A stretch of 64,000 nucleotides of DNA from Novimethylophilus kurashikiensis. Its GTDB lineage: Bacteria > Pseudomonadota > Gammaproteobacteria > Burkholderiales > Methylophilaceae. The number at the start of each line of letters is the position of its first letter. The stretch's first letter is position 1. The notes beneath the pieces were generated by a model that saw only the letters and a program-made list of their open reading frames with translations, had not been told where the DNA came from and did no database searches. Both the position numbers and the translations under genes were made by a program. Below are positions 59,149-63,161 of the stretch, in pieces. The stretch spans positions 248,001-312,000 of the forward strand of contig NZ_BDOQ01000003.1 of assembly GCF_003112435.1 (NCBI RefSeq). Reading direction: 5' to 3'.

Positions 59149-60543
59149 TTAATAGCCCTTGGGACGCGGCCAAGGCATCGTGAATTGATCGCCGCGCTTG
59201 ACGAACTGGTACCTTCGGAAAGTGAACCAGAGCGAAGCCACGATGTAGAACGCCATGATGGACAGCAGCGATGCGCCGTAGCCCAGGAACGTGGCGAAAT
59301 AAACCGCAGAGCAGAGGATGAACAACGTGATTGCCGGGATCGGGTGGAACGGGTGGATATAGCCGCGCTTGATGCTGTTGAGCGGCCATTTCTTGCGGAA
59401 CTTCACCATGTTGATGGACATGAAGGTGTAACCCAGCAAGCCCGACAGGATGGAGAAGGTGATCACCTGATCCAGCAGGCCGGTAAACGCGAAGGACACG
59501 GCGATGGGAATCAGGAAAATGATCGAACGATACGGCGTACGGTAGCGCGGATGGATCGCACCGAACCAGACCGGCATATAGCGGTCGCGTCCCAGCGAGA
59601 ACCAGGCGCGGGCGGCATCGTTAATACAACCGTTGGCCGAGGCGATCGCGGAGAACATGGTGCCGATGAACAGCAGGACCTGCACCTTGGTATTGCCGAT
59701 GAGCGAAGCGGCGTCATACAGCGGCGTGACAGCCTGGCCCAGGTATTGCCAGGGCATGAGACCGGAACAGATGTACCAGGTCAGGCTTGCGGCCACCAAT
59801 AAGGTCATCATGCCGCCCATGGTGCCCAGCGGAATGGCGCGACCCGCGGAACGTACTTCCTCTGCGGCCTGGCAGGTGCCTTCGATCCCCAGGTAATACC
59901 ACATGCCGAACTGCAACGAGGCAATGACACCGATCCAGCCGTAGGGCAGGTCGGTCAGCAGTTCGCTGTGCTTGAGCACGGCGCCCGGATGCACCGGGTC
60001 GGTCACGAGGAACAGGACCAGAATGGCGAAAAACGCGAATAGCGTGATGACGAAATTGAGCGTCAACGTCATGAACACGCCGCGGTAGTTGAGCCACGCC
60101 AGGAAGGCGATGGTCAGCACCACGAACGGTTTGGTATCGAGCCCGGCGTAGCCTAGCGCTTCCGCACCCGACTTCATGAGGTCGCCCACGACCAGCGCAT
60201 CCGCCGCCTCCAGCATGGTATAGGCCATGACCAGATATAGCCCGACGTTAAACGCCATCAATGGCCCGATGATGTGTTTGGCCTGGGTATATTGCCCCCC
60301 TGCCGCCGCCACCGTCGAAGTCACTTCTGAGTCGATCATGGCCACGCAGGTATACAGCAACCCGATGACCCAACAGGCGATCAGGGACCCGTAAGCCCCC
60401 CCTTTTGCGACAGAGAAATTCCATCCCATGAATTCCCCTACCAACACGATGCCAACCCCTAACGCCCAGATATGGAAGGGGTTCAGCACCTTCAACATGG
60501 TTATGCGCTCACCGCCGGTGGCGCTTGCAGCACTTGTGCTCAT
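59149..60543 (-). CDS. APC-superfamily amine/amino-acid permease (copy 2)
   Basis: A 464-residue permease with twelve predicted helices. The first helices read LGVGIVLVGEFMGWNFSVAK and the family glutamate is in YLGIEGTCQAAEEVRSAG. The start at ATG 60543 is preferred over a TTG two codons upstream. It lies downstream of three genes for small membrane proteins and a terminator-linked structured RNA. Given mgs upstream, methylamine or ethanolamine-like substrates are plausible. Confidence 0.87.
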   Translation of the reverse strand: MSTSAASATGGERITMLKVLNPFHIWALGVGIVLVGEFMGWNFSVAKGGAYGSLIACWVIGLLYTCVAMIDSEVTSTVAAAGGQYTQAKHIIGPLMAFNVGLYLVMAYTMLEAADALVVGDLMKSGAEALGYAGLDTKPFVVLTIAFLAWLNYRGVFMTLTLNFVITLFAFFAILVLFLVTDPVHPGAVLKHSELLTDLPYGWIGVIASLQFGMWYYLGIEGTCQAAEEVRSAGRAIPLGTMGGMMTLLVAASLTWYICSGLMPWQYLGQAVTPLYDAASLIGNTKVQVLLFIGTMFSAIASANGCINDAARAWFSLGRDRYMPVWFGAIHPRYRTPYRSIIFLIPIAVSFAFTGLLDQVITFSILSGLLGYTFMSINMVKFRKKWPLNSIKRGYIHPFHPIPAITLFILCSAVYFATFLGYGASLLSIMAFYIVASLWFTFRRYQFVKRGDQFTMPWPRPKGY

Positions 60544-60565
60544 CTCCAATGTCTCCCTTTTGTCT

Positions 60566-60762: not shown

Positions 60763-61143
60763 TTACTTATCGCCGAATTTCTCTGCGATAACTTCCCTGT
60801 ATTGCTTGTCCGAAACCTTAATCATGTAGATGAAGTAACCGATGATGACCGCTGCGGTAACCAGCAACATGACGGGATCGATCGTATAGTCGAACTTGGT
60901 GTCGATGAGCGCAGCAGCCTTCTCTGCGTCGTAACCGAGCTTGACCCACTGCTCCTGAATGACTGCTGGCAGATGCAGCGATTCCCAAGTGGGCTTGGGG
61001 CCGTTGTTTGCCGCTGCAGCAGCGCTTTCGCTCTTTAGCCAGAGCGGAATGTAAAGACTGACGTAGACCAGAACGAGAATAAAAATACTGTCAACGAATT
61101 GACCTAATCCGCTCTGTTTTTTGGGGATAAATTTCTTAGCCAT
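60763..61143 (-). CDS. Small two-span membrane protein (126 residues)
   Basis: Two hydrophobic segments (IFILVLVYVSLYIPLWL near residues 20-36 and VMLLVTAAVIIGYFIYMI near 92-109) flank a ~50-residue soluble loop with ESLHLPAVIQEQWVKLGYD. A lysine-rich N-terminus implies cytosolic ends. The ribosome site GAGGAGAGGAG is strong. Second gene of the permease operon; unknown function. Confidence 0.75.
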   Translation of the reverse strand: MAKKFIPKKQSGLGQFVDSIFILVLVYVSLYIPLWLKSESAAAAANNGPKPTWESLHLPAVIQEQWVKLGYDAEKAAALIDTKFDYTIDPVMLLVTAAVIIGYFIYMIKVSDKQYREVIAEKFGDK

Positions 61144-61187: not shown

Positions 61188-61535
61188 TTATTTTGTTGTA
61201 GACGGGACAACGTTGAGCGCATCGGCTGCGGCATCGGCTTTTGCCTGTTTTGCTGCGGCGCGATTGGCGTCGAGATGCTTGATGTCGAGACCGTAGATGA
61301 AATCCTTGTCCTCGGCATAATGGGTGGTCATTGCGGTGACGGAGGCCGTGTTGAAAAGGACCAGCAACCCGCTGCCGCAATACATGGCAAACCTGATCTG
61401 GGGGTCATGCACAATACTGAGAATACTGACCAGGACGAACCCCACTGCGCCCCAAAGCAACAGTATGTCGACCCAGGCCATGGCACAGTCCTGCAAAAAC
61501 ATTCGCTGTATCCGCGATTTCATATCCTGCTTCAT
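61188..61535 (-). CDS. Small two-span membrane protein (115 residues)
   Basis: Two hydrophobic stretches (WVDILLLWGAVGFVLVSILS and FAMYCGSGLLVLFNTASVTA) followed by a charged Ala/Lys/Asp-rich tail. AGGAGG precedes two adjacent ATGs; the one at 61535 has the better spacing. First gene after the terminator-linked RNA element, with two more small membrane-protein genes and the permease downstream. Confidence 0.75.
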   Translation of the reverse strand: MKQDMKSRIQRMFLQDCAMAWVDILLLWGAVGFVLVSILSIVHDPQIRFAMYCGSGLLVLFNTASVTAMTTHYAEDKDFIYGLDIKHLDANRAAAKQAKADAAADALNVVPSTTK

Positions 61536-61617
61536 CATTTCCTCCTTTAATTGAAAAATTAACTACAAAACAGCCTCCGATTTACAAACGACATTCGCAG
61601 GACACGCCTGCACAAAT

Positions 61618-61646
61618 AAAAAACGGAGGAACGAATTCGTCCTCCG
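61618..61646 (-). terminator. Intrinsic terminator between mgsC and the permease operon
   Basis: Stem CGGAGGA/TCCTCCG with an inner CGAATTCG helix (61624-61646), followed on the minus strand by six T (61623-61618). It lies ~80 bp before the first small membrane-protein gene and directly after the structured element at 61662-61769. Confidence 0.92.
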
Positions 61647-61661
61647 CATTGAATAAAGAAA

Positions 61662-61769
61662 GAAGGGAGCCATGCGAGATTGAGCAAACCGCCTCGATAC
61701 CTGCCTTGCGGCAGATATCTCGGCTAACACCTCGCATTTTGATATTCGTCATGGCCCGAAGCTCCCTTC
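61662..61769 (-). ncRNA. Candidate structured regulatory RNA (aptamer-like) ahead of a terminator
   Basis: In the RNA sense: a closing stem of 9 perfect pairs (GAAGGGAGC 61769-61761 with GCUCCCUUC 61670-61662); a small hairpin UUCG/CGAA; a 7-bp stem AUGCGAG/CUCGCAU (61737-61731 with 61678-61672); and a long helix (61724-61691) with tandem G-A mismatches capped by a GCAA tetraloop on CUGCC/GGCAG. The junction strands are A/U-rich. It is followed by an intrinsic terminator and then transport genes, the order of a terminating riboswitch. It could also be a 3'-UTR element of mgsC. Confidence 0.6.
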
Positions 61770-61814
61770 AAAACCGACGACGCTACGTCGGGAGGAGTTG
61801 CAACATGGAAATCT

Positions 61815-63161
61815 TTAGAACGGTGAAACTCCCGGAATCCAGTTGGTACCAGCCAGCGGAATCTTGGCCATGGCTGCCGCTTCGAGCGTCAGCGCGACCA
61901 GGTCTTCCTTCTCCAGGTGATGCACGTTGGATTTGCCGCAGGCACGGGCAACCGTGGTGAGTTCCATGTTCAGCGTCTTCAGGTAGTTCTTGAGACGCTT
62001 GGCACCTACCAACGGCTCCAGTCGCTGCTCGAGGATCTCGTCCTGGGTCGTCACACCGACCGGGCACTTACCGGTCTGGCAGTGATGGCAGAAGCCAGGT
62101 GCGGTACCCAGTGCGTTGTAGTCCGCGGTGGCATCGATGTGCTGACCGTTCTGCACGTAGCTGCTGCTGTTGCAGCCGAGGGACAGCAATACGCCCTGGC
62201 CGATCGCTACGGCATCTGCACCCATGGCGAGTGCCTTGGCGACGTCTGCACCGGTACGGATACCGCCGGAGACGATCAACTGCACCTTGCCGCGCATGTT
62301 CATGTCTTCCAGCGCATCCACAGCCTGGCGCAATGCGGCCAGGGTCGGGATACCGATGTGCTCGATGAACACGGTCTGGGTTGCAGCCGTACCGCCTTGC
62401 ATACCGTCGACCACGATCACGTCGGCACCGGCGTGTACGGCCAGCTTCACGTCGTTGAACGTACGGGTGGCGCCCACCTTGATGTAGATCGGCTTTTCCC
62501 AGTCGGTAATTTCGCGCAGCTCTGCCACCTTGATGGCCAGGTCGTCAGGACCGGTCCAGTCAGGGTGACGGCAAGCGGAACGCTGGTCCACACCGACCGG
62601 CAGCGTACGCATGCCGGCCACGCGCTTGGTTACCTTCTGGCCCAGCAGCATGCCGCCGCCGCCCGGCTTGGCACCTTGGCCAATCACCAGTTCGATGGCA
62701 TCAGCCTTGCGCAGGTCGTCCGGGTTGAAGCCGTAACGGGAAGGCAGGCACTGGTACACCAGCGTCTTGGAGGACTGACGCTCTTCCGGGGTCATACCGC
62801 CGTCGCCGGTGGTGGTCGAGGTACCCATTTCGGTCGCGGCGCGACCCAGGGCTTCCTTCACACGGCCGGACAAGGCGCCGAAGCTCATGCCTGCAACGGT
62901 GATGGGGATCGCCAGTTCGATCGGCTTCTTGGCGAAACGCGTGCCGAGAACCGTGGTCGTGGTGCACTTCTCGCGATAACCTTCCAACGGGTAACGCGAG
63001 GCGGAGCCGGCCAGGAACACCAGGTCGTCGAAGGACGGCAGCTGGCGCTTGGCGCCCATACCGCGAATTTCATACAAGCCGGTCGCCGAGGCACGGTGCA
63101 CGTACTCGATGACTTTCTGGTTAAAGCCAGCGCTTTCTTCCAACACTAATTTTTTGCTCAT
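61815..63161 (-). CDS. mgsC: N-methylglutamate synthase subunit C (FMN/Fe-S, GltB-like)
   Basis: A 448-residue protein equal to the FMN-binding synthase domain of glutamate synthase. It has GQGAKPGGGGMLLGQKV, DGMQGGTAATQTVFI, SGGIRTGADVAKALAMGADA and the 3Fe-4S cysteines CHHCQTGKCPVG. With MgsA and MgsB it forms N-methylglutamate from methylamine and glutamate. GlxD-type or glutamate-synthase-like roles share the fold; the neighbouring amine genes favour Mgs. Confidence 0.87.
   Translation of the reverse strand: MSKKLVLEESAGFNQKVIEYVHRASATGLYEIRGMGAKRQLPSFDDLVFLAGSASRYPLEGYREKCTTTTVLGTRFAKKPIELAIPITVAGMSFGALSGRVKEALGRAATEMGTSTTTGDGGMTPEERQSSKTLVYQCLPSRYGFNPDDLRKADAIELVIGQGAKPGGGGMLLGQKVTKRVAGMRTLPVGVDQRSACRHPDWTGPDDLAIKVAELREITDWEKPIYIKVGATRTFNDVKLAVHAGADVIVVDGMQGGTAATQTVFIEHIGIPTLAALRQAVDALEDMNMRGKVQLIVSGGIRTGADVAKALAMGADAVAIGQGVLLSLGCNSSSYVQNGQHIDATADYNALGTAPGFCHHCQTGKCPVGVTTQDEILEQRLEPLVGAKRLKNYLKTLNMELTTVARACGKSNVHHLEKEDLVALTLEAAAMAKIPLAGTNWIPGVSPF

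Follow-up and report, generated by a model that had tools for sequence, protein, structure and literature searches.

The gap between mgsC and a transport cassette

What reads the structured RNA that is encoded between mgsC and a group of transport genes in Novimethylophilus kurashikiensis? The window, by which the whole 64,000-nt stretch of DNA under analysis is meant, has on its minus strand the order mgsB, mgsC, a gap of 276 nt (the length already given in the first-pass annotation), a gene for a 116-aa protein, a gene for a 126-aa protein, an APC-family permease gene, Usp and a porin. The glutamate-synthase-like large subunit encoded by mgsC (61815..63161, minus strand; PF01645, 4e-91) is followed by the three genes referred to below as the cassette: those of the 116-aa (61188..61538, minus) and the 126-aa (60763..61143, minus) proteins, both of membrane type and without a Pfam family, and that of the permease (59149..60549, minus; PF13520), for which the nearest NCBIfam model is ethanolamine permease with a score below the cut-off. 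The pair of small proteins accompanies an APC permease in groups as far apart as Methylophilaceae and Rhizobiales, and the three are probably an uncharacterised multi-part transporter. No promoter-like site was found in the mgsC-cassette gap of the window.

The gap had been described as a multi-stem element followed by an intrinsic terminator and then by transport genes, and was interpreted as a terminating riboswitch of no recognised class. The structural part of this description is borne out. The closing stem P1 (GAAGGGAGC/GCUCCCUUC) consists of 9 bp, with its 5′ arm at 61761..61769 and its 3′ arm, followed by UUCUUUCUUUAUU, at 61662..61670, and thus bounds an element of 108 nt (61769-61662, minus strand). 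The interior (61671..61760, minus) is formed by a 7-bp stem (AUGCGAG/CUCGCAU) and a long helix that contains tandem GA and is capped by a GCAA tetraloop (GCC-GA-GAUAUCUGCC-GCAA-GGCAGGUAUC-GA-GGC). The minimum free energy of the element is −53.2 kcal/mol as compared with −32.4 kcal/mol for dinucleotide shuffles (z = −5.77, 0/200). The intrinsic terminator T2 (CGGAGGACGAAUUCGUUCCUCCGUUUUUU; 61618..61647, minus; z = −4.95) begins 14 nt past P1. In a search of Rfam 15 there was no match at gathering score in the window and none at E ≤ 10 in the gap, and 12 related loci gave no match either.

Three features had been missed. A small hairpin, P0 (CCGACGUAGCGUCGUCGG plus UUUU; 61770..61791, minus; z = −2.8), lies just after mgsC. 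A Shine-Dalgarno (SD) sequence, GGGAG (61762..61766, minus), lies within the 5′ arm of P1, the 3′ arm being an anti-SD. And an AUG (61752), just after this arm and 9 nt past the SD, opens a leader reading frame of 56 codons (MTNIKMRGVSRDICRKAGIEAVCSISHGSLLSLFNAEDEFVPPFFICAGVSCECRL; 61582..61752, minus) that spans P1 and T2, such that the U tract of T2 codes for part of it. The U tract behind the P1 of the window is interrupted.

Homologous loci

A DNA-level search of 100 relatives for the element recovered nothing beyond its own genome, apart from a 34-nt match in genome G065, inside an SDR gene, that was discarded as chance. Since there were no relatives at the DNA level, homologues were anchored on the 116-aa protein. 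This protein is encoded by 24 of 187 family genomes and, as a search of contigs revealed, also in Methylophaga, Paraburkholderia, Methyloversatilis and many Rhizobiales. Its gene is nearly always followed by the 126-aa gene and the permease. In Methylophilaceae and Methylophaga mgsC is directly upstream of the cassette; in most alphaproteobacterial loci and in Paraburkholderia mgsC is missing from this position and, by visual inspection, the cassette carries a TTGACA-type promoter sequence of its own.

In the alphaproteobacterial loci L065, L073, L083, L091, L101 and others, the gene of the 116-aa protein is preceded, at a distance of about 100 nt, by a TTGACA-type promoter and by another structured-looking leader (GUUGCCCCGUAGCAA...GGGGCGGGC...UGCGGGG); the two that were scanned, L065 and L083, gave no Rfam match. 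In L117-L121 and L104-L106, which are cassettes of g25 and Methyloversatilis, a short motif immediately before the 116-aa gene encodes residues of the type D-x-F-[YI]-P-S-x-K but has no obvious start codon. The cassette is also borne by L058, a metagenome-assembled genome (MAG; TH-08apr19-40) titled Bordetella parapertussis; its 116-aa protein resembles those of Methylophilaceae (54%) and the title is therefore probably a mislabel.

Conservation of the hairpin

The first-pass annotation had looked to covariation in homologous gaps, and to the presence of the element wherever the permease operon is conserved, as the touchstones of its proposal. All 24 cassette-bearing Methylophilaceae gaps fold to a hairpin of about 100–125 nt, and P1 is present in every one of them. 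In an alignment of 21 sequences from seven genera, 12 of the 13 P1 pairs show double changes, the number of double-change cells being 79 versus 26 in shuffles (0/500), and P1 pairs to 95.6% as compared with 33–61% for slid controls; it should be noted that this alignment was registered by hand on the stem, and the counts lean towards the stem. When all genera were aligned with plain MAFFT the register slipped and RNAalifold yielded no structure, which is the reason for the registration by hand. Within Methylotenera (g7) covariation extends over the entire hairpin, with double changes in 10 pairs (0/500). A U tract follows P1 in every genus, and nearly all Methylophilaceae homologues have a P0-like hairpin with a T tract in the corresponding position. 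A candidate anti-SD upstream of P0 (CUCCUCCC), which could pair with the SD in an alternative fold, was present in some genera, inconsistently, and was dropped.

Covariation thus holds for P1 across seven genera but does not extend to a common interior, whose sequence and fold change from genus to genus. Indeed, a covariance model of the Methylotenera hairpin does not detect the window's own element, from which it follows that the interiors differ. This bears directly on the riboswitch, in which methylamine, N-methylglutamate, glutamine or glutamate would bind the interior and stabilise or destabilise P1 and T2. In its favour, a terminator and transport genes are preceded by a very stable and elaborate fold that includes tandem GA and a GNRA loop, and there are a nearly invariant apical region in Methylotenera (GCGGGUUnnnCCUCCAACUACCG) and a nearly invariant loop in Methylophaga (GAUCCUUACCCCGUC). 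The interior is, however, unrelated between genera while P1, SD/AUG and the reading frame persist, and the window's interior is without a close homologue, so that a shared aptamer is not supported: what is common to the homologues is P1 with SD/AUG, rather than a ligand-binding core. Together with the lack of an Rfam class this makes a riboswitch rather improbable. Of the original proposal, a conserved, structured and probable attenuator before transport genes stands; the aptamer is not supported.

Linkage of P1 to the cassette

Among the 51 genomes of the family with mgsC, 24 have the cassette and 27 lack it. P1 with SD-AUG was found in 24/24 of the former and, as judged by eye from the folds, in 2/27 of the latter; in the other 25, mgs mostly ends in short ordinary terminators. 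P1 therefore belongs with the cassette. The two genomes that have lost the cassette and kept P1 are G196 (locus L135), in which P1 still pairs and a stop inside the hairpin breaks the leader ORF, and G030 (L138), in which the ORF is still open. The gap of G030 leads directly to a gene starting MKPVVIIQ, like an amidotransferase further downstream in the window, a gene order that fits the cassette having been lost recently.

These distributions also bear on a second alternative, namely that P1 and T2 are terminators at the end of the mgs operon which give rise to a small RNA derived from the 3′-UTR, that a C-rich loop of this RNA pairs with ribosome binding sites (RBSs) in trans, and that the ORF is secondary. 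The U tract after P1 in every genus and the retention of P1 with its U tract in cassette-less G196, where the ORF is broken, agree with this, as does the fact that the element is single-copy. So does the C-rich apical loop: the anti-SD-like CCUCC occurs in the hairpin interior of 17 of the 24 Methylophilaceae loci (L005-L007, L010-L016, L018-L022, L025 and L026) and is kept across differing reading frames (g20 versus g7/g15/g22), and Methylophaga has CCUUACCCC. On the other hand, the window, g9 and g12 are without CCUCC, 25 of the 27 cassette-less mgsC genomes are without P1, and the frame is conserved in 23 of 24 loci. We consider this alternative unlikely.

A different hairpin in Methylophaga

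In 11 Methylophaga-type loci (L028, L029, L030, L032, L033, L035, L036, L037, L041, L044 and L050) the gap between mgsC and the 116-aa gene contains a terminator-type hairpin with a covarying stem (nine pairs with double changes) and a near-invariant loop, GAUC[CU][UC]UACCCCGUC. The hairpin is single-copy, with one strong match per genome. There is no ORF in the hairpin, and a covarying hairpin at the same place without an ORF counts against an attenuator that is read by translation. It is the best argument for a non-ribosomal signal. Downstream of it, 10 of the 11 loci have AGGAGG-N5-GUGUA[GA], a possible start-stop element. The Methylophaga hairpin may represent this switch with some other reader, or else be a distinct element.

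A leader reading frame within the stem

An SD and an AUG at the same site of P1 were found in 24/24 cassette-bearing genomes. The SD in the 5′ arm varies (GGGAG, GAGGG, GGAAG or GGGGG), with the AUG a few bases on. The frame stays open across the hairpin and its U tract in 23/24, the other two frames in 0/48. It is also open in 21/21 of a second alignment set, in which an upstream AUG was scored in seven rows, the conserved AUG lying in its frame +1. Thus, as would be expected of a leader-ORF attenuator, a conserved ORF with SD and start lies upstream of the genes and overlaps a covarying, terminator-type hairpin: P1 covaries, a U tract is there in all genera, and in the window T2 lies inside the ORF. 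An aptamer would not be expected to conserve an open frame.

The length of the leader ORF ranges from 40 to 116 aa; in Methylotenera alone it is 62–112 codons, with the frame kept. In the hairpin part of the Methylotenera ORF, pS is 0.27 and pN 0.24, and the conservation of both classes of codon sites is, judging by the substitution pattern, constraint on the RNA. The middle of the ORF drifts (pN/pS 0.95). In the last 12 codons, pS is 0.77, pN 0.28 and pN/pS 0.36, and these codons are, by this measure, under purifying selection in three genera. In the pair of g9 loci there are 17 amino-acid-changing codon changes versus one silent change in 56 codons, with the frame kept.

It could be argued that the ORF encodes a bona fide small protein from an RBS that is sequestered by its own transcript, and that the protein rather than attenuation matters, and both the SD-AUG-ORF in 24 genomes and the selection on the C-terminus in three genera would accord with it. 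Constraint is, however, limited to some 9–12 C-terminal residues, the middle evolves like neutral sequence, the excess of amino-acid-changing differences in g9 and the variation in length speak against a conserved protein, and the window's ORF has no homologous protein family; such a gene is very improbable. We read the leader as selected for being translated and not for its product, with a putatively functional tail added in three genera.

All 18 loci examined of the Methylotenera-type genera g7, g15 and g22, in which the ORF ends 46–89 nt before the cassette, have this tail, Y-x-[LI]-x-x-P-F-[W/D/G/S/T]-UGA, with synonymous codon changes; in g22 it is carried by a separate 17-codon ORF. The tail also occurs, as VIYYQNALPFW-UGA, in L057, a Methylophaga-labelled MAG, where the last codons are the 3′ arm of P1 and the U run, and UGA is the stop codon in 19/19 of these loci taken together. 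Conserved residues by the stop and a variable rest, as expected of an arrest peptide, are thus found in g7, g15, g22 and L057. In L057 the AUG at P1 is directly followed by UGA, which means that the ORF at this site is not universal. The conserved tail is absent in four of the seven genera, namely g1 (that of the window), g9, g12 and g20; the ORF of the window ends with SCECRL and lacks PFx-UGA.

Comparison with known attenuators

In the growth-rate-dependent attenuator of E. coli ampC, a ribosome at the leader RBS competes with the terminator hairpin. The start-stop ORF of L057 (AUGUGA) fits this pattern, whereas the Methylophilaceae frame is open for 40–116 codons and three of the genera have the conserved tail. 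In E. coli pyrBI, a ribosome on the leader ORF (pyrL) close behind RNA polymerase suppresses an intrinsic terminator hairpin (PMC5021804). As in pyrBI, the leader ORF here runs across an intrinsic terminator, but it is the 5′ arm of a hairpin of about 100 nt that holds its SD and start codon, and the genes and the signal differ. TnaC, the leader peptide of tnaCAB, ends with Pro-UGA and blocks RF2, the ribosome stalling when Pro occupies the P site and UGA the A site (PMC10941005). The loci described here share with it a short leader ORF before a transporter operon and conserved C-terminal residues beside UGA; they differ from it in having PF[W/D/G/S/T], no sensor of the W12/D16 type and an arrest that is putative, and the tail is missing from the window and, with it, from four of seven genera. 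The uORFC motifs, likewise covarying RNA structures overlapping a conserved uORF, are proposed as ribosome-mediated attenuators; the passages considered here describe no motif from these bacteria or before these genes (RNA Biol 2021, PMC8632094). Literature searches for N-methylglutamate with riboswitch or for a Methylotenera N-methylglutamate permease yielded nothing relevant on RNA regulation, and one for Methylophilaceae small RNA nothing relevant.

A proposed translation-coupled attenuator

The RBS and AUG in the stem, the frame kept through it and the arrest-like tail together suggest that the switch is read by a ribosome and not by a metabolite aptamer. The gap is thus best explained, with a probability of roughly 0.6, as a translation-coupled attenuator like those of pyrL and ampC, with a hidden leader ORF. 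The leader would be co-transcribed with mgs. From a polymerase leaving mgsC, P0 would be made first and then the 5′ arm of P1 with the SD and the start codon. A ribosome that loads promptly and trails the polymerase would keep P1 and T2 unfolded and so permit transcription into the 116-aa, 126-aa and permease genes. If no ribosome arrives in time, P1 would close, the SD would be sealed, and transcription would terminate at the U tract of P1, at T2 or at both. In g7, g15 and g22 the tail, which resembles a stop-codon arrest peptide, may provide a second checkpoint. A ligand may have a part in this, via either the nascent peptide or the RNA.

Besides the Methylophaga hairpin and the start-stop AUG of L057, some observations weigh against this attenuator: in the window the ORF is without the conserved tail and the U tract behind P1 is interrupted, and terminators can remain efficient when placed in the first ~100 bp of a coding region (PMC4824070). 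A bolder version is that the PF[W/D/G/S/T]-UGA leader is a new nascent-peptide sensor which stalls on a metabolite of the methylamine pathway and, together with the ribosome-gated terminator with its RBS in the stem, sets the expression of the permease, and that, once excised, the hairpin and its C-rich loop may double as a small RNA; this we regard as speculative and, in its entirety, doubtful.

If the translation-coupled attenuator is right, the apparent orphan riboswitch would be an example of a case that can be resolved by reading-frame tests alongside covariation. It would represent an undescribed family of ribosome-read attenuators, probably with an arrest peptide, for the N-methylglutamate pathway, and methylotrophs would couple the uptake of C1/N substrates to translation via a leader ORF in a terminator stem.
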